Below, one piece after another: positions 18,515-44,376 of a stretch of DNA of 64,000 nt. The notes under the pieces were generated by a model that saw only the letters and a program-made list of their open reading frames with translations, made no database searches and was not told the origin of the DNA. Each line of letters opens with the position of its first letter. The first letter of the stretch is position 1. Source of the stretch: an uncultured Bacteroidales bacterium (GTDB lineage Bacteria > Bacteroidota > Bacteroidia > Bacteroidales > UBA932); contig CALUST010000032.1 in assembly GCA_944323505.1 (NCBI GenBank), forward strand, positions 32,291 to 96,290, in the 5' to 3' direction. The translations under genes and the position numbers were made by a program.

Positions 18515-18775
18515 CTAGTTCTCGAAAGGAATCACCGAAACGTATGACTTGTTCTCTGCTTTCTTGCGGAAACTTACCGTACCGTCAACAAGGGCATAGA
18601 GAGTGTGGTCTCTTCCCATCCCTACATTCTGACCAGGGTAATGCACGGTGCCTCTCTGACGAACGAGAATGTTGCCGGCTTTCACTACCTGGCTACCGAA
18701 TTTCTTGATACCAAGTCGTTTGCTCTCTGACTCACGACCGTTCTTTGAACTACCGACGCCTTTTTTATGTGCCAT
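18515..18775 (-). CDS. rpmA: 50S ribosomal protein bL27
   Basis: 86-residue ribosomal protein bL27, whose flexible N-terminus reaches toward the peptidyl transferase centre. Starts [20 protein letters not shown], with no cleavable Firmicutes-type extension, and contains the [13 protein letters not shown] and HPGxNVG-like [16 protein letters not shown] motifs. It is 20 bases downstream of rplU, the standard bL21-bL27 operon. Confidence 0.98.
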
Positions 18776-20529: not shown

Positions 20530-21252
20530 ATGAAAAAGAAGATAGCGATACTCACGGGAGCCGGAGTCAGCGCGGAGAGCGGCATCAGCACTTTCCGGGA
20601 CAGCAACGGGCTTTGGGAGAACTACAGGGTGGAGGATGTGGCAAGCATCGACGGATGGTACCGCAACCCCGGACTGGTGCTCGACTTCTACAACGAACGC
20701 CGCAGGCAGCTCGGCACAGTCAAGCCCAATGCCGCACACTATGCGATTGCCTCCCTTGAAAAGGAATACGACGTCACCGTCATCACACAGAACGTCGACA
20801 ACCTGCACGAAAGGGCCGGCAGCACAAGAATCATCCATCTCCACGGGGAACTGACCAAGGTCCGTCCGGAAAACTGCTGCAACGAAAGCGACGGCTTCTC
20901 CGAGGAGTCCGTCTTTGACATCGGATACGACGCCGTCATGCTCGGAGACAAGGCTCCGAACGGGGCTCAACTGCGTCCGCACATCGTATGGTTCGGGGAG
21001 GCGGTGCCGAAGATCGGACAAGCCATCGATGCAGTGGAAAAGGCGGACATAATGCTGATAGCAGGCACTTCGCTCCAGGTGTATCCGGCGGCGGGCCTGT
21101 TCAGATACGCCGGCATCAGGACACCTATATATATCATCGACCCGAAAGAGGTGCAGGTGCACGATGACAGGATCACTCATATAAAGGATGTGGCGACATC
21201 CGGCATGGAAAGATTCATTTCAATGCTGGGGCAAAAGAAAAATTTTGAATAA
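20530..21252 (+). CDS. cobB: NAD-dependent protein deacylase, sirtuin family
   Basis: Removes acetyl or other acyl groups from lysines using NAD. 240 residues. The Rossmann motif LTGAGVSAESGISTFRD, the NAD site TQNVDNLHERAG, catalytic His105 in LHGELT, and LIAGTSLQVYPAAG are intact. The usual four-cysteine zinc site is not visible: the region between the HGE motif and LRPHIVWFGEAVP has only an adjacent Cys pair (ENCCNES). Start is the ATG at 20530; an in-frame TTG at 20506 would add eight Lys/Glu-rich residues. Downstream of the AAA ATPase by 32 bases, possibly one transcript. Confidence 0.9.
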   Translation: MKKKIAILTGAGVSAESGISTFRDSNGLWENYRVEDVASIDGWYRNPGLVLDFYNERRRQLGTVKPNAAHYAIASLEKEYDVTVITQNVDNLHERAGSTRIIHLHGELTKVRPENCCNESDGFSEESVFDIGYDAVMLGDKAPNGAQLRPHIVWFGEAVPKIGQAIDAVEKADIMLIAGTSLQVYPAAGLFRYAGIRTPIYIIDPKEVQVHDDRITHIKDVATSGMERFISMLGQKKNFE

Positions 21253-21273
21253 GAAATAATTTGATTACCTTTG
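21243..21273 (+). promoter_or_regulatory. Promoter of rpsU
   Basis: TTTTG at 21243-21247, 18 bases, TACCTTTG at 21266-21273. It overlaps the 3' end of the sirtuin gene and gives a short leader of roughly 25 bases containing the Shine-Dalgarno. Confidence 0.7.
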
Positions 21274-21286
21274 CACCCGCAAATAA

Positions 21287-21298
21287 AAAGGAGGTGAT
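21287..21298 (+). promoter_or_regulatory. Exceptional Shine-Dalgarno of rpsU
   Basis: AAAGGAGGTGAT is a 12-base perfect complement of the expected 3' end of 16S rRNA. GGAGGT ends 9 bases before the ATG. Other gene starts in the window rarely have more than a few purines here. In this phylum bS21 helps hide the anti-SD, so such a site suits autogenous control by bS21 shortage. Confidence 0.85.
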
Positions 21299-21304
21299 AC
21301 AGCG

Positions 21305-21499
21305 ATGATTATAGTTCCTATCAAGGAGGGCGAGAACATAGAGAAGGCTCTTAAGAAATTCAAAAGGAAATTTGAAAAGACCGGGGCAATCCGTGAACTC
21401 CGTGCGAGAAAGGCTTACGTGAAACCGTCAGTCAAGAGAAGAGAGGAGATCAAGAAAGCAATCTATGTTCAGCACATGCAGCTCATGGACGAGAAATAG
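21305..21499 (+). CDS. rpsU: 30S ribosomal protein bS21
   Basis: 64-residue small-subunit protein bS21, starting MIIVPIKEGENIEKALKKFK and ending in a basic helix with KRREEIKKAIY. In Bacteroidetes ribosomes bS21 with bS6 and bS18 holds the 16S 3' tail so that most mRNAs are read without Shine-Dalgarno pairing. Its own mRNA has a near-ideal Shine-Dalgarno, which only ribosomes with a free tail (for example lacking bS21) should use well. Monocistronic: own promoter and a strong terminator. Confidence 0.97.
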   Translation: MIIVPIKEGENIEKALKKFKRKFEKTGAIRELRARKAYVKPSVKRREEIKKAIYVQHMQLMDEK

Positions 21500-21547
21500 T
21501 TCATCTCCGCTACAAGATTTATCGAGGCCGGTGACGGCCGGTGACAT

Positions 21548-21583
21548 AAAGTGATCCGAATGTGATTCGGGTCACTTTTTTTA
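21548..21583 (+). terminator. Intrinsic terminator of rpsU
   Basis: A 14-base stem (AAAGTGATCCGAAT with ATTCGGGTCACTTT, one G-U pair, loop GTG) runs into a T tract. Strong textbook terminator, about 50 bases after the stop codon. Confidence 0.9.
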
Positions 21584-21584
21584 T

Positions 21585-21606
21585 TATATTTGGCACTATC
21601 GTGCCA
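21585..21606 (+). promoter_or_regulatory. -7 element and inverted repeat before the AsmA-like gene
   Basis: TATATTTG (21585-21592) overlaps TGGCAC, TATC, GTGCCA (21591-21606), a perfect 6-base inverted repeat over the expected transcript start. It could be an operator or a 5' stem-loop. No -33 element is evident because the rpsU terminator occupies that position. Confidence 0.4.
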
Positions 21607-21647
21607 TTTATACTGTTGCGCCATATTTTTTTGTTGAAATTTATGCC

Positions 21648-24600
21648 ATGAGCGGGAAAAAGAGAAAAATGAGGGTCGTATGGAAAGTGCTGCTGTGGAT
21701 CATAGGTATCTGGGCTGTACTTCTGATAACTGTGCAGGTGGCCTTGTCCCCTGCCGTGCTGACAAGACTTGCAAACGGGTTCGCAGCGGACTACATCGAC
21801 GGCGACGTCACCTTCGGCGATGTCAGGCTGTCAGTATTCAAGAGTTTCCCATACCTCAACGTAGGCTTTTCCGATGTCTCTGTCACCTACCCGTCCGACA
21901 GGTTCCCGTACACTGACAACAGTTTCTACTCCAGACAGGGACGCGGCGACGGAGCAGACACCCTCGCCTCGTTCAAGAAGCTGTATGTCTCGGTCGACGT
22001 AGCCGCACTGGCCACAGGGACAATCCGGATTCCTGCCCTCATGCTGAGCAAGCCCAGGATCTTCGCCAAGAATTTCGGGGACGGCAGGGTAAACTGGGAT
22101 ATATTGAAGATGCCATCCGACAGCACGGCGTCAGAAGACACAGCATCGGGAGAGATGCCAAAAATAATTCTCGGCAGGATTGTGCTGCGCGGACATCCGC
22201 ATGTCGTATATTCCTCTCCGGAAGATACAGTCTTCGCCATGGCGGACATGAAGAGATTCCGGTTCAACGGACGGCTCGCTGTCGGCAAGAAAGGCAGGAA
22301 CAGGCTCGGCTTCATGATTGACAGCATGTTCGTGGCGGGAAGACTTCCGTCCGACACCCTCGCACTGAAACTTGACAGGCTCGGGCTGCAGGCAGACAGA
22401 GATCATCTGGATCTGAATGCTTCGGCGACCACCTACATGGCCATGAGTTCATACGGCCGGATGCGGCTGCCGATAGACCTGTCCGCCGAGATCGGATTCC
22501 CGAAAGACTCAGTATTTGCCGTGGAAGTCCGTAACCTCCGCGCCAAAGCGGCCGACATCCCGCTCAGAGCGGATGCATATATAAGTTACGGGGACAGGCT
22601 CTATATCAGAGGCGATGCCTCGATTGAGGAATGCAAGGTCAATGACGTACTCGACTATTTCAGGAAGAACATACTCAAAAAGGCGGAAAACATCACCACG
22701 GATGCGGAAATCTCGCTTCATGCCACATTCGACGGCTTCTATGATTCCGGGACAGGCGAAATCCCTGACATCACGGCTCATCTGTCCATCCCGCACTCCA
22801 CGATAGGAAACAGGATGTTCGACATACGTCACGAGATAGCCCTGGACACCGATGTGAGAGGCAGCAGGGATGGCAGGCTCGATGTGACGCTCAATGACTT
22901 CCATATCAGCGGCAAGGCTCTGAGGATTGCCGCCAAAGGCTCGGCTTCGGACATCCTCGGCGAGGACCCTGTGATTGATGCCGATGCAGGTGTAGACATC
23001 AGCCTTGACACCCTGGCAAGATTCATCCGGAAGAACAGCGGCCTCACAGTATCGGGAGCCCTCTCGGCAAGTGTCAAAGGAAAGGCTTCGCTGTCCCAGC
23101 TCGACCCGTACCAGCTGGCCAAGGCCGACATCTCAGGCAGGATTGCAAGCCCAGGTCTGGAGGTGATGTCGGAGAAAGATACTCTGAAACTGTTTGTCGA
23201 CAGTCTCGACGTATGGCTCGGCGCAGTGGGCAACACCAGGGATGCGAGTGTCGCGCAAGGTGAGCGGATGCTTGCACTCGTGGCGTCGGCCGACAGCTCC
23301 TTCCTCTCCTACAAGGACATGATGAAAGTGAGGGGGAAAGACCTGTCAATCAAGGCTCAGAATTCGGCAGCAATCCTGGACAAGAAGGACTCGTCGTCAT
23401 TCTACCCGTTCGGCGGCAGACTGGAGATAGGCAGGCTGTCCATCGTGGGGGCCGACACGACGTTCGTGGCGCTCCGCAACTCTGACAACACCTTCAAGAT
23501 TTCCCCTAAATCGTCCAATCCGAAGATACCGGTGCTCACCCTCGACAGTTCCACAGGCCGCATATTCATGAGAGGACCTGTCAACAGGATAGCATTGCGG
23601 GACCTTGACATGAATGCCGTTGCAGCCATGAACTCGATAGAACGCCGGCAGCGGGCAAAGGCATTTGTGGACTCCCTGTCACGGAAATATCCTGATATAC
23701 CGAGGGATTCCCTCTTCGGACATCTGCGAAAGATGAGAGGGTCAAGACCCCTTCCGGACTGGCTGAGCGAGAAGGATTTCATGAAACAGGACCTCAACCT
23801 GAGGCTGAGCGACTCCATGGCAAGATATTTCAGGGAATGGGATGCAGACGGCTCAATATCCGTCGGCAGCGTCAACCTCATGAGTCCGTACTTCCCTCTA
23901 CGCAACAGGCTCTCCGATGTCAAGGCAAGCTTCAACAACAACGAGATCAGTTTCGACAGTTTCAGACTTGACAGCGGCACATCTGACCTCGAAGTGACGG
24001 GAAGACTTTCGGGGCTCAGGGGAGCACTGCTCGGAAGAGGCTTCGTGAGACTTGACATGAACGTCAACTCAGACAGGCTGAATCTCAACGAACTGATTGG
24101 GGCATATTCTGCCGGCAGCCGGTTTGTATCTGAAGACAACTCAGCCGCATCGCTTGAAATCAGCGATGACGAATACGCCGAAATGATTGTCACAGACACG
24201 CTTGCCGATGCTTCAATTGACGCCTCATCCTTGATTGTGGTACCAGCCAATATCATCGCGGACATATCATTGAGGGCCTCGGACGTCTCGTGGTCATCGC
24301 TTGACATAGAATCGATGACTACAGACCTTGTGATAAAGGAACGGTGCGTCCAGCTGACAAACACGGTAGCCAATTCCGACATCGGGGACATAGAATTCGA
24401 AGGATTCTATTCCACCCGCACCAAGCAGAACCTCAAGACAGGATTCGACCTGGCGTTGAAGGACATCACGGCTGAGAAGGTGATAGCCATGATGCCGGCC
24501 GTTGACTCAGTGATGCCTATGCTGAAATCGTTCAAGGGGATGCTCAACTGCACAGTATCTGCCACGGCAAGCATCGATACCACCATGAACATAGACATAC

Positions 24601-39829: not shown

Positions 39830-42800
39830 ATGAATCTTAAGACATTTATTGACAGGCCTATCCTGTCACTCGTTATATCAGTGTTCATCGTGCTGGTGGG
39901 TATGATCGGACTCGCCGTGCTCCCTATCGAGCAGTATCCGGACATCGCCCCGCCTACCATCAGAGTCAGCACGACATACAGCGGAGCCAATGCGGCTGCC
40001 GTCCAGAACAGTGTGATCGTACCTCTTGAAGAGGCGATCAACGGTGTGGAGAACATGACATACATGACTTCCGAGGCAAGTAACACCGGAAGCGCATCAA
40101 TATCGGTATATTTCAAGCAGGGTGTCGACCCGGATATGGCTGCCGTCAATGTGCAGAACAGGGTATCCAGGGCACAGTCACTGCTGCCGGCCGAGGTCAC
40201 CCGTGTCGGTGTCGAGACCATGAAACGCCAGAGCAGTACGCTGAAAGTGTTCGCATTGGCAAGCCCCGACGGGACATACGACGAGACATTCCTCACCAAC
40301 TACCTGAGCATCAACATCAAGCCTGAGATACAGCGTATCTCCGGTGTCGGCGAGGCCAATGTGATGGGCGGTGACTATGCCATGCGTATCTGGATGAAGC
40401 CGGATGTGATGGCCCAGTACGGGCTCCAGCCGTCCGATATCATATCAGCCCTTTCCGCACAGAACATCGAGGCATCCACCGGTTCCCTCGGCGAGGACTC
40501 GAAGAATGTGTTCCAGTACACCCTAAAATATAAGGGACGCCTCGCTGAGGAGGCTGAATTCGGAGAGATTGTGCTCCGTGCATACGAGGACGGACGCACA
40601 CTGAGGCTGAAAGACGTGGCGGACATCACGCTCGGGGCACAGACCTATTCATTCGAAGGCCGTGTCAAAGGTGCGCCAGGTGTGACAATGATGATCAACC
40701 AGACCGCCGGGAGTAACGCGAATGAAATCATCGAGGAAGTGGACGCCTACCTTGCAGAGGCAGCCAAGGACCTGCCTGCGGGGACGGAGTTCGTGGACAT
40801 CATGAGTACCAAGGACTTCCTTGACGCATCCATCCATGAGGTCATCAAGACCCTCTTCGAGGCCATCCTGCTTGTCATCCTCGTGGTGTACGTGTTTCTG
40901 CAGAACGTCAGGTCCACAATCATCCCGACAATCAGTATATTCGTGGCCCTCATCGGTACATTCGCATTCCTCGTGGTGGCGGGATTCTCCATCAACCTGC
41001 TGACCCTGTTCGCGCTTGTGCTGGCAATCGGTACGATAGTCGATGATGCGATCATAGTCGTGGAGGCGGTACAGGTGAAGTTTGATGAAGGGTACCAGTC
41101 TCCATACAAGGCGGCAGTAGACGGAACATCGGAGGTGTCTTCAGCCATCATCACCGCCACCCTCGTGTTCATGGCCGTGTTCATCCCTGTGTCATTCATG
41201 GGAGGTACTTCGGGAGTGTTCTACAAGCAGTTCGGTCTGACGATGGCCGTGTCAGTGGGTCTCTCCGCTGTCAACTCGCTTACGCTCTCCCCTGCACTCT
41301 GCGCCCTGCTCCTCAAACCGAACGAGATTGTCGCTCCGGGAGAGAAGCCGAAGCAGTTCTCGACGAGGTTCAGAATCGCATTCGAGTCGGGATTCGGCAG
41401 GCTTGTCAAGAAATACAAGTTCGGTGCGGCATTCTTCATCAGGAACAAATGGGCCACAGGGCTCTGCTTCCTTGCAGCTATCGGCATGCTGATGTATCTG
41501 ATGAGCACTTCCAAGACCAGTCTCGTGCCTAACGAGGATACGGGCTCCCTCTTCATAAGTGTGGACGCCCCGGCAGGAAGCACGCTTGACCAGACCAACC
41601 AGATATTGAGCGAGATGCAGAAATGCATCCAGGACATACCTGAAATCAGGACATTCAACCAGGTGGCAGGATTCTCATTCGCAGGTAGCGGAGCATCTCA
41701 CGGTATGATGATGGTCAAGCTCCAGCCTTGGGACATGCGTCCTGACAAGGACCAGAGCAATACTGCCGTGATGAACGAGATATACCGCAGGACGGCCGGC
41801 ATCAAGAATGCACAGATATTCATCTTCGCCCCGCCTATGATCTCAGGTTACGGTACAGGTAACAGTTTCTCCGTAGACCTTCAGGACAGGTCCGGAAAAG
41901 GTATAGAGGCCCTGAACGAAGTGACGAATGAAGTGATAGCGGCTCTCAACAGGAGACCTGAGATACAGATGGCATATACATCTTTCAGTACCCAGTTCCC
42001 ACAGTACACTATCGATGTGGATGCCGCGAAATGTCTCCGCGCAGGGACTACCGCAGACCAGGTGCTGAGTGTAATGCAGGGTTACCTCGGAAGTTACTAT
42101 GCATCCAACTTCAACCGGTTCACGAAACTCTACCGTGTCATCCTGCAGGCCCGTCCTGAGGACAGGGACCAGATTCAGTCACTTGACAACATCTATGTCA
42201 AGACAGCATCAGGCATGGCTCCGGTGAGCCAGTTCGTGACCCTGACCAAGTCCTACGGTGCAGAGATTCTCAACAGGTTCAACCTGTTCCCGTCAATCAC
42301 GGTCATGGGTATGCCTAACGAGGGATACAGTTCCGGAGATGTCATCAATGCCGTGCAGGAAGTGTCGGCAGAGGTGCTCCCTACCGGGTTCGGATACGAG
42401 TTCTCAGGCATGACCAGGGAGGAGGCCCAGCTCGCCGAATCGCATACGACGACGATCATATATATTATATGTATCATCTTCATATACCTGATTCTCTGCG
42501 GTCTGTACGAGAGTTTCTTCCTGCCGCTCGCGGTCATCTGCTCAGTGCCGTTCGGTCTCATGGGAAGCTTCCTCTTCTCCAGATGGTGGGGCATCGAGAG
42601 CAACATCTACATGCAGGTGGGTATCATCATGCTCATCGGCCTTCTTTCCAAGACGGCCATCCTTATCACGGAGTACGCCAGTGACAGGAGAAAGATGGGG
42701 ATGACTCTCAGCCTGTCGGCGATTTCCGCTGCGGGAGTCAGACTCAGGCCTATCCTCATGACCGTCCTGACGATGATCTTCGGTATGCTTCCGCTTGTGG

Positions 42801-42967
42801 TCGCTTCCGGAGTCGGTGCAAACGGATACCGGTCACTCGGTGTAGGTGTCGTGGGAGGTATGATTATAGGTACCATCGCCCTGCTGTTCATAACACCTAC
42901 ATTCTTTGTGATATTCCAGTATATCGAGGAGAAAGTGATGGGCAAAAGAAAGGAGGACAGAGCATAA
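39830..42967 (+). CDS. RND multidrug efflux pump, HAE1 family (AcrB/MexB type)
   Basis: 1045-residue inner-membrane proton antiporter with 12 helices and two large periplasmic loops. Begins FIDRPILSLVISVFIVLVGM and has LPIEQYPDIAPPTIRVSTTY. The proton-relay acidic pair is in helix 4 (ALVLAIGTIVDDAIIVVEAV). The C-terminal helices include LIGLLSKTAILITEYA, where AcrB has its relay Lys. Exports hydrophobic drugs, bile acids or similar from the periplasm with the flanking adaptor and channel proteins. Overlaps the channel gene by 1 base (TAATG). Confidence 0.95.
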   Translation: MNLKTFIDRPILSLVISVFIVLVGMIGLAVLPIEQYPDIAPPTIRVSTTYSGANAAAVQNSVIVPLEEAINGVENMTYMTSEASNTGSASISVYFKQGVDPDMAAVNVQNRVSRAQSLLPAEVTRVGVETMKRQSSTLKVFALASPDGTYDETFLTNYLSINIKPEIQRISGVGEANVMGGDYAMRIWMKPDVMAQYGLQPSDIISALSAQNIEASTGSLGEDSKNVFQYTLKYKGRLAEEAEFGEIVLRAYEDGRTLRLKDVADITLGAQTYSFEGRVKGAPGVTMMINQTAGSNANEIIEEVDAYLAEAAKDLPAGTEFVDIMSTKDFLDASIHEVIKTLFEAILLVILVVYVFLQNVRSTIIPTISIFVALIGTFAFLVVAGFSINLLTLFALVLAIGTIVDDAIIVVEAVQVKFDEGYQSPYKAAVDGTSEVSSAIITATLVFMAVFIPVSFMGGTSGVFYKQFGLTMAVSVGLSAVNSLTLSPALCALLLKPNEIVAPGEKPKQFSTRFRIAFESGFGRLVKKYKFGAAFFIRNKWATGLCFLAAIGMLMYLMSTSKTSLVPNEDTGSLFISVDAPAGSTLDQTNQILSEMQKCIQDIPEIRTFNQVAGFSFAGSGASHGMMMVKLQPWDMRPDKDQSNTAVMNEIYRRTAGIKNAQIFIFAPPMISGYGTGNSFSVDLQDRSGKGIEALNEVTNEVIAALNRRPEIQMAYTSFSTQFPQYTIDVDAAKCLRAGTTADQVLSVMQGYLGSYYASNFNRFTKLYRVILQARPEDRDQIQSLDNIYVKTASGMAPVSQFVTLTKSYGAEILNRFNLFPSITVMGMPNEGYSSGDVINAVQEVSAEVLPTGFGYEFSGMTREEAQLAESHTTTIIYIICIIFIYLILCGLYESFFLPLAVICSVPFGLMGSFLFSRWWGIESNIYMQVGIIMLIGLLSKTAILITEYASDRRKMGMTLSLSAISAAGVRLRPILMTVLTMIFGMLPLVVASGVGANGYRSLGVGVVGGMIIGTIALLFITPTFFVIFQYIEEKVMGKRKEDRA

Positions 42968-44376
42968 TGAAAAAGTCACTATATATGGCTGCAGGCAAGG
43001 CAGCACTTGCCGCAGCAGTAATCATGATGATGAGCAGCTGCTCGATCTACCGCAAATACCAGCGTCCGGAGAATCTCCCGACAGACAGCCTGTACCGCGC
43101 AGAACTGGTGCCGGAGGCTCAGAATACCTCGGAGCCTGACACCAACTCGCTCGGTTATATGTCATGGGAGGAACTTTTCACGGATCCGTGCCTGCAGGAT
43201 CTCATCCGCAAGGGTCTTGACAACAATGTCGACCTCCAGAGCGCAATCCTGAGGGTGGAAGAGGCGAAAGCCCAGCTTTCAGCCGCCAGATGGGCATACG
43301 CCCCGTCCCTGAATCTCACCCCGCAGGGAGGACTGACCAGCGTGAACGGTAATGGAGTGTCATGGTCCTACAATCTCGGCGGTGCAGTGAGCTGGGACAT
43401 AGACCTGTTTGGGAAACTGCTGAACTCCAAGCGCGGGGCGCAGGCAGTGCTTCTGCAGCAGCAGGCTTACCAGCAGGCTGTCAGGTCGCAGATCATCGCC
43501 ACGACAGCGAACACATACTTCTCTCTTCTGATGCTTGACGAACAGGTCAGGATAAGCGGGGAGAATGTGAGAATCTTTGAAGAGCAGGTCAGGACAATGG
43601 AGGCTATGCTGAAGGCCGGCAAGATAAACGAGAATGCCGTGACCCAGGCAAGGGCAAACCTCTACGGGCTTGAGGCGTCATACGCTGACATGCTGAGACA
43701 GCAGCAGGAAACCGTGAATGCCCTCTGCTCTCTGCTCGGACAGCCGTCCATGCCGATAGTACGAGGAAGACTCGCAGACCAGACGGTGCCGGACGAGATA
43801 CGGGTGGGAATACCGCTCCAGTTGCTGTCCAACAGACCTGACGTATATCAGGCAGAGATGGCGCTTGCAAGCGCATATTACACTACCAACCAGGCAAGGG
43901 CTGCATTCTATCCGAGTCTGAACCTGTCAGGAAGTGCAGGATGGACCAACAGCCTCGGACAGGCCATAACCAATCCTGCCGGAGTGCTGATATCAGCCCT
44001 CGGACAACTGACAATGCCTATCTTCAACCACGGGCAGCTGAAAGCCAACCTGAAGGTGAGCAAAGCCGAGGAGGAAATTGCGCTGCTGAACTACCGCCAG
44101 ACGCTCCTGAATGCAGGTGAGCAGGTGAACAATGCCCTCTATGCAGTGGAGATTGCCGATGAGATGTACAACAAGCATCTGGCTCAGGTAAAGGACCTGG
44201 AAAGGACAGTAAAGACTTCCGAGATGCTCTACGAAAGGTCTACAGGAACATATCTGGAACTCCTTTCTGCAAGACAGTCATTGCTGAGCGCACAGTTGAA
44301 CGCCGTGACTGACCAGTTCACAAGGCTGCAGTCCGTGGTGAGCCTGTACCAGGCCCTCGGCGGAGGAAAGGAATAA
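42967..44376 (+). CDS. TolC/NodT-type outer-membrane efflux lipoprotein
   Basis: 469 residues; lipoprotein signal ending MMMSSCSIYRKYQRPEN, then two outer-membrane efflux repeats with long coiled helices (LQSAILRVEEAKAQLSAARW, ALASAYYTTNQARAAFYPSLNLSGSAGWTN). This is the trimeric channel of the tripartite pump. It begins on the pump's stop codon and is preceded by AAAGGAGG ten bases upstream, but those bases are also pump codons. Its end is 2 bases from the convergent murI stop. Confidence 0.94.
   Translation: MKKSLYMAAGKAALAAAVIMMMSSCSIYRKYQRPENLPTDSLYRAELVPEAQNTSEPDTNSLGYMSWEELFTDPCLQDLIRKGLDNNVDLQSAILRVEEAKAQLSAARWAYAPSLNLTPQGGLTSVNGNGVSWSYNLGGAVSWDIDLFGKLLNSKRGAQAVLLQQQAYQQAVRSQIIATTANTYFSLLMLDEQVRISGENVRIFEEQVRTMEAMLKAGKINENAVTQARANLYGLEASYADMLRQQQETVNALCSLLGQPSMPIVRGRLADQTVPDEIRVGIPLQLLSNRPDVYQAEMALASAYYTTNQARAAFYPSLNLSGSAGWTNSLGQAITNPAGVLISALGQLTMPIFNHGQLKANLKVSKAEEEIALLNYRQTLLNAGEQVNNALYAVEIADEMYNKHLAQVKDLERTVKTSEMLYERSTGTYLELLSARQSLLSAQLNAVTDQFTRLQSVVSLYQALGGGKE

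Follow-up and report, generated by a model that had tools for sequence, protein, structure and literature searches.

The rpsU locus described here raises the question of why, in an uncultured gut member of the Bacteroidales, the gene for ribosomal protein bS21 should be preceded by an extended Shine-Dalgarno (SD) sequence, when excerpts of a recent survey (McNutt 2023, PMC9976891; this and the other papers are cited from excerpts of their text) report that the ribosomes of the class ignore SDs and that no Bacteroidales member satisfies the two rpsU criteria of that study. The same excerpts place extended rpsU SDs in four other orders and in Chlorobia, and give 9 to 13 base pairs as the extent of rpsU pairing within the class. 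We examined the locus in the window, meaning the whole 64,000-nucleotide stretch of DNA that was analysed, in the host genome assembly (1.93 Mb, 90% complete, 49 contigs), and in genomes of the same genus, family, order and class.

The rpsU locus and its pairing with the 16S tail

The gene lies between a Sir2-family gene that ends at 21252 and a large ORF that starts at 21648, beyond the rpsU terminator. Its features are as follows.

21243-21273, plus strand: candidate Bacteroidota-type promoter, with TTTTG at 21243-21247, an 18-base spacer and TACCTTTG at 21266-21273
21285-21296, plus strand: extended SD AAAAAGGAGGTG, pairing without a gap over 12 bases with the 16S tail of the relatives, 3'-UUUUUCCUCCAC-5' (RNAduplex, -17.8 kcal/mol)
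21287-21298, plus strand: the 12-mer AAAGGAGGTGAT of the initial annotation, its final two bases outside the contiguous duplex with the relatives' tail
21305-21499, plus strand: rpsU (ORF; Pfam PF01165 Ribosomal_S21, E 1.3e-18), encoding bS21 of 64 aa with Tyr at position 54
21548-21578, plus strand: intrinsic terminator with a 14-pair stem, a 3-base loop and a T run

The promoter candidate, assigned by its likeness to the Bacteroidota promoter consensus, overlaps the end of the Sir2-family gene. From the usual distance to such an element, the transcript would start at about 21277-21280, giving a leader of ~25 nt with no more than ~10 nt ahead of the SD. An element ending in TTTG or TTTGC is found 11-15 bases upstream of AAAGG in 74 of the 83 unique SD leaders described below, and a sigma-70 promoter scan found no promoter at the locus, as expected in this phylum. 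The terminator proposed earlier is present; a scan of 21100-21800 returned 3 terminator-like sites, against a mean of 0.6 in shuffles. An Rfam search of 21000-21800 gave no family above threshold, and an OrzO-P match over the terminator on the minus strand was discarded as far below its own threshold.

The initial annotation had described the 12-mer as the full complement of the 16S tail, placed 9 bases (from GGAGGT) before the bS21 start. Its location and the 9-nt spacing to the ATG at 21305 are as described, while its full complementarity does not hold against the tail of the relatives. No 16S gene was found in the 49-contig assembly of the host; in 15 relatives with an rpsU SD the tail reads GGAACACCTCCTTTTT rather than GGATCACCTCCTTTCT, and the duplex is therefore AAAAAGGAGGTG, of 12 bp and -17.8 kcal/mol, two bases off the earlier version. 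Two A's 5' of the 12-mer lie inside this duplex and its last two bases (AT) outside, pairing of this AT after GGTG being ruled out by A1532 of the relatives. Calculated with RNAduplex (not free_scan) over 16S 1532-1544, the rpsU energy with the relatives' tail is below -13 kcal/mol. The window leader pairs over AAAAAGGAGGTG with the tail ACACCUCCUUUUU at -17.8 kcal/mol, with a C1543 tail at -16.5 kcal/mol and with the flavobacterial tail form UCACCUCCUUUCU at -17.9 kcal/mol, so that pairing energy by itself cannot separate the tails.

The extended SD is shared by one Bacteroidales family

The closest named bS21 loci (L031-L054, 91-97% identity) come from uncultured Bacteroidales and from Candidatus Cryptobacteroides, which NCBI taxonomy places in the Bacteroidales. 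According to excerpts of PMC8035907, GTDB assigns Cryptobacteroides and Coprenecus to the family UBA932; given this and the names of the relatives, the family label used for our same-family counts (f1) is probably UBA932.

Among 25 genomes of the same genus, host included, 21 had an rpsU match, and the motif AAAGG[A/G]GGTG was present in 20/20 leaders read, GGGGG occurring in six (the remaining match, a partial one without a locus, was left out). Four genomes of this genus (G015, G018, G020 and G022, one of them 95% complete) gave no bS21 match and have rpsR with an SD; either contigs are missing or bS21 has really been lost. The order sample, 295 Bacteroidales genomes representing about 120 families, yielded rpsU in 261. 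A pattern joining the SD to the rpsU start matched rpsU in 4/4 genomes of the family, from three genera, and in 1/257 outside it (G319); because the pattern requires an M-I start, other leaders could be missed. Direct reading of 74 outside-family rpsU leaders (10, and 64 of L191-L255) found no extended SD, with the exception of the same G319 (L216). Other pattern matches were rejected as rpsU since the listed rpsU place in those genomes differs, those in G119 and G258 were rejected because these genomes have no rpsU match, and reading showed the six in G195, G204, G246 (two), G299 and G351 not to be bS21. Matches to the SD pattern across the class were mostly unlike rpsU, and there the bS21-like starts were read. 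The earlier statement that rpsU keeps its SD thus stands for the family and is too general beyond it, as nearly all other sampled Bacteroidales are without one.

The exceptional G319 (family f41; L216, G319:C15:44700-45500) carries the extended rpsU SD CGAAAGGAGGTGT, at -21.4 kcal/mol with a C1543 tail. Upstream of it lies an apparent tRNA 3' end, judged by eye, and the bS21 that it precedes is divergent. The rpsU SD is missing from two further f41 genomes (L217, L218), and the G319 SD may reflect either transfer or an independent gain.

Removal of exact duplicates reduced 178 loci to 164 unique leaders. Pairing energies of the 84 SD leaders (-19.6 to -16.3 kcal/mol) and the 80 others (-10.9 to +2.9 kcal/mol) do not overlap, the SD class being defined by AAAGG[A/G]GGTG, so that conservation is informative only at positions outside this motif. 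Within the 80 named loci the motif is absent from L055, L087, L089, L098, L100, L104 and L073, the last of these (Coprenecus) having the leader AAAAGTAGG with GTAGG. Residue 54 of bS21 is Tyr in 164/164 sequences, from SD-bearing and SD-less Bacteroidales alike. Retention of the rpsU SD in related leaders indicates that it is more than a chance match.

The 16S tail of the family differs at position 1543

From 80 related genomes searched, 17 16S 3' ends were obtained. All 15 genomes with an rpsU SD and a readable 16S end (five with the family label, the other 10 being named loci without family assignment) have the tail GGAACACCTCCTTTTTGG (TTTTTGG), and the two without an rpsU SD have GGAATACCTCCTTTCTGG and GGAACACCTCCTTTCTGG (TTTCTGG). 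In the order sample, tails were read from 32 of 295 Bacteroidales: 31/31 outside the family are TTTCTGG, two of them being the SD-less genomes just mentioned, and the only in-family tail, from the single-contig genome G298, is TTTTTGG in three copies. The class sample gave tails from 27 of 247 genomes (four Bacteroidales), with C1543 in 24 and U1543 in 3 (G394, G462 and G493). These readings, from a pattern that detects only tails with ACCTCCTTT, indicate that A1532 is common in Bacteroidales and that U1543 was seen in the order only in this family and its SD-bearing named relatives.

We compared this position with the leader base opposite it in 83 SD leaders (L216 of G319 excluded), of which 21 carry the family label and 62 are named loci without family assignment. 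The base facing 1543 is A in 81/83, compared with 55% A at five nearby positions, and A at the next base out in 35/83; it is also A in 21/21 unique leaders bearing the family label. Leaders from related genomes are not independent counts, and collapsing them to 35 groups only softens this kinship: A in 35/35 groups gives a binomial value of 7e-10, which is a rough index since the groups are related. The leader is also A-rich in general, position x7 being A in 73/83. Outside the family, the 13 SD bS21 leaders comprise ten (L260-L266, L277-L279), two (L340, L341) and that of G319 (L216), L257 having been removed as not bS21. There the facing base is G in 6 (G319, G372, G432, G467, G499 and G585, with F. 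johnsoniae-like genomes represented by G432, G467 and G585), A in 4 (G411, G413, G421, G442), T in 2 (G449, G475) and C in 1 (G592). With G in just 6/13 outside leaders, covariation of the rpsU leader with the 16S at 1543 is incomplete, and the comparison is suggestive of it, not proof.

The centre of the SD core is G (GGGGG) in 10/83 leaders. Those with AAAGGGGGTG, in which the central pair with the 16S is G-U, are L004, L008, L012, L017, L018, L019, L050, L063, L066 and L109, and they possibly carry a tuned, weaker SD. Covariation of the core was ruled out for the GGGGG leaders, as the 16S core is unchanged in five such genomes read, which implies that the G-U pair is used.

Strong SDs at other starts are few

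The initial annotation had also held that nearly all other starts in the window are without an SD, and this was borne out. For 48 window genes (greedy ORF picks with the most upstream ATG, to which rpsU and rpmA were added manually), pairing has a median of -2.7 kcal/mol vs -2.75 in a mock interval, and 6/48 starts reach -7 in the SD interval as in the mock. The strongest of the 48 is rpsU, at -17.8, and one other alone reaches -13. A wider set joined 20 further stretches to the window (~0.46 Mb, 330 genes of at least 120 aa, most upstream ATG), for which rpsU itself is too short. Here 18 starts lie at or below -7, fewer than the 31 of the mock, those at or below -13 number 4/330 vs 1/330, and none goes beyond -14.6. 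In both the 48-gene and the 330-gene set most other genes are SD-less.

Genome-wide, there are 29 AAAGGAGG-ATG sites and 10 sites of the reversed pattern; a looser AGGAGG-ATG pattern was abandoned as uninformative, with 356 matches. The best pairing among the 29 is that of rpsU (-17.8), and the next two (-16.4 and -15.1) lie inside longer reading frames. They are followed by a plausible start on another contig (L303, -15.0), with dnaJ, rpsR and several others near -14. Inspection of these sites by eye picked out no ribosomal protein starts other than rpsU and rpsR, and rpsU is the strongest of the ribosomal protein genes compared, ahead of rpsR (-13.5) and rpmA (-10.3).

The host rpsR has the SD AAAAAGGAGG, at -13.5 kcal/mol. 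An rpsR match came from 34 genomes; among the 30 that were read, the rpsR start has an SD in 18/19 same-genus genomes and in 7/11 others, two of the latter (G039, G040) with AAAAGGAG. The sole same-genus genome read with an SD-less rpsR is G013 (L186), whose rpsU SD is of the GGGGG type.

Several further starts, named by eye, deserve mention. The dnaJ start (L331:18062-19219, host contig C10) pairs at -14.5 and an rsmH-like start (L316:4502-5425, host contig C7) at -14.6, both named from their first residues; the dnaJ and rsmH families act on folding or ribosomes, and the host genome otherwise has few SDs. In the window, a TolC-like gene (42967-44376) has AAAGGAGG at 42949-42969, in the end of the preceding ORF (39830-42967), at -13.7; the overlap of its ATG with the end of that ORF suggests translational coupling. 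The rpmA gene (bL27, 18515-18775) has a moderate SD, ACAGGAGG, at -10.3.

A candidate feedback unit for bS21

We consider it likely, from the comparison of sequences and by analogy with F. johnsoniae, that rpsU by itself makes up a feedback unit controlling bS21. Once a ribosome is complete, its bS21, bS18 and bS6 would hold the 16S 3' tail, and the SD would be read poorly. In ribosomes that lack bS21, the free tail could pair over ~11-12 bases with the rpsU leader, and such ribosomes would make bS21 until the pool is complete. Excerpts of PMC9976891 (McNutt 2023) report for F. johnsoniae that loss of bS21 raises translation of rpsU and other strong-SD reporters, and that altering Tyr54 of bS21 gives a 3-fold rise of the rpsU reporter; sequestration of the 16S tail has likewise been shown in that species, and the model is repeated in excerpts of PMC10931766 and PMC10783764. 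The tail would be hidden likewise in the ribosome of this lineage, and the SD used as described. Feedback is supported here, by comparison only, through conservation of the SD in the family, the matching tail of the relatives and Tyr54. The earlier proposal that bS21-less ribosomes translate this message preferentially is accordingly favoured by the comparison and by the F. johnsoniae data, although as a mechanism it had already been published.

An alternative is that the leader simply has a strong SD serving a high need for translation, used constitutively by all ribosomes and without feedback. The other strong SDs of the genome would fit this, namely dnaJ (-14.5), the rsmH-like gene (-14.6), the TolC-like gene (-13.7), another start (-15.0) and rpmA (-10.3), as would the 4 starts at or below -13 vs 1 in mock windows. 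However, the host genome has fewer SDs at or below -7 than the mock windows, which is unexpected if its ribosomes use SDs freely, and ribosomes of the class are reported to ignore SDs (PMC9976891, excerpts); moreover, the strongest SD stands at the gene of a pocket protein, rpsU, and another strong one at rpsR. Constitutive use is, on balance, improbable. The SD might also be a relic inherited from an SD-using ancestor, its function gone, and the extended rpsU SDs that the same excerpts report from four other orders and Chlorobia would be in keeping with such an origin. Yet three genera of the family have all kept it while the leader around it varies, and its base facing 1543 matches the relatives' own tail, which makes loss of function highly improbable.

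Classical autoregulation of a ribosomal protein, in which bS21 would bind a structure in its own leader and repress, finds some encouragement in a weak predicted hairpin over the SD and start region of the rpsU mRNA (-8.4 kcal/mol), and in the SD region being less unpaired in SD leaders than the same region in SD-less ones (0.45 vs 0.64). Against this, the rpsU leader, with a probable length of ~25 nt, has a z of only -0.91, and 21000-21800 holds no Rfam family above threshold. The 84 SD leaders, with a mean z of -0.22, give no sign of the conserved secondary structure expected of a structured ribosomal protein leader. That bS21 binds a structure in the leader is unlikely, and repression through it barely credible. 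We retain feedback through the exposed 16S tail as the preferred reading.

A more far-reaching and doubtful proposal is a joint change, confined to one Bacteroidales family, of the 16S tail (C1543 to U) and the rpsU leader (G to A), in a family that regained or kept a bS21 feedback lost by its order; its odds are lowered by the G in only 6/13 outside leaders. If it were true, pairing beyond the core, out to 1543, would be under selection for the rpsU mRNA. Since rpsR is strongly marked as well, the completeness of the ribosome would be reported by both pocket proteins, and genes such as dnaJ and the rsmH-like gene might belong to a small regulon that incomplete ribosomes control.

Comparison with known systems

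The feedback mechanism itself is already known and not new in kind: the self-correcting control of rpsU was proposed by Jha 2021, as cited. What is new is the lineage, together with the difference in the tail at 1543 and the leader base that suggestively matches it. The lineage is an exception to the published statement, as excerpted, that no Bacteroidales have an extended rpsU SD. The genome set of McNutt 2023 consisted of GTDB representatives at the complete-genome level (PMC9976891, excerpts), while the named relatives found here are nearly all metagenome assemblies, which suggests how the family was overlooked. In the literature searched, rpsU, SD and Bacteroidales were treated together only in PMC9976891 and PMC8710568; nothing linked Cryptobacteroides to Shine-Dalgarno sequences, and from 2023 on no new family with bS21 autoregulation appeared among the matches listed. 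The tail difference suggests, without proving it, a second natural covariation of 16S tail and rpsU leader, this time outside the core. A family with an rpsU SD inside a mostly SD-less order also offers a natural contrast for asking why the control point differs between two pocket proteins.

The locus resembles rpsU of F. johnsoniae, as excerpted from PMC9976891, in being a bS21 gene whose SD spans 9-13 bp and pairs below -13 kcal/mol although the genome has few SDs, in the Tyr54 of its bS21, and in having the strongest SD of the starts examined. It differs from the McNutt 2023 system in its host order, the Bacteroidales, for which those excerpts report no qualifying member. Unlike in F. johnsoniae, the relatives' tail has A1532 and U1543, the G facing C1533 is the last base of the duplex, a strong SD is found at rpsR too, and a few other genes lie near -14 to -15. 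In Chryseobacterium-type Flavobacteriales (Jha 2021, as cited), the leader likewise tracks a lineage-specific state of the 16S tail; there the core itself is changed (UCUCA), whereas here the core is intact and covariation, which is incomplete, concerns 1543, a position close to the 3' edge of the tail. Finally, the host shares the rpsR SD of the Bacteroidales (Jha 2021, as cited in the excerpts of PMC9976891), with AAAAAGGAGG at -13.5, and departs from that system in that its rpsU has an SD as well, stronger than that of rpsR.
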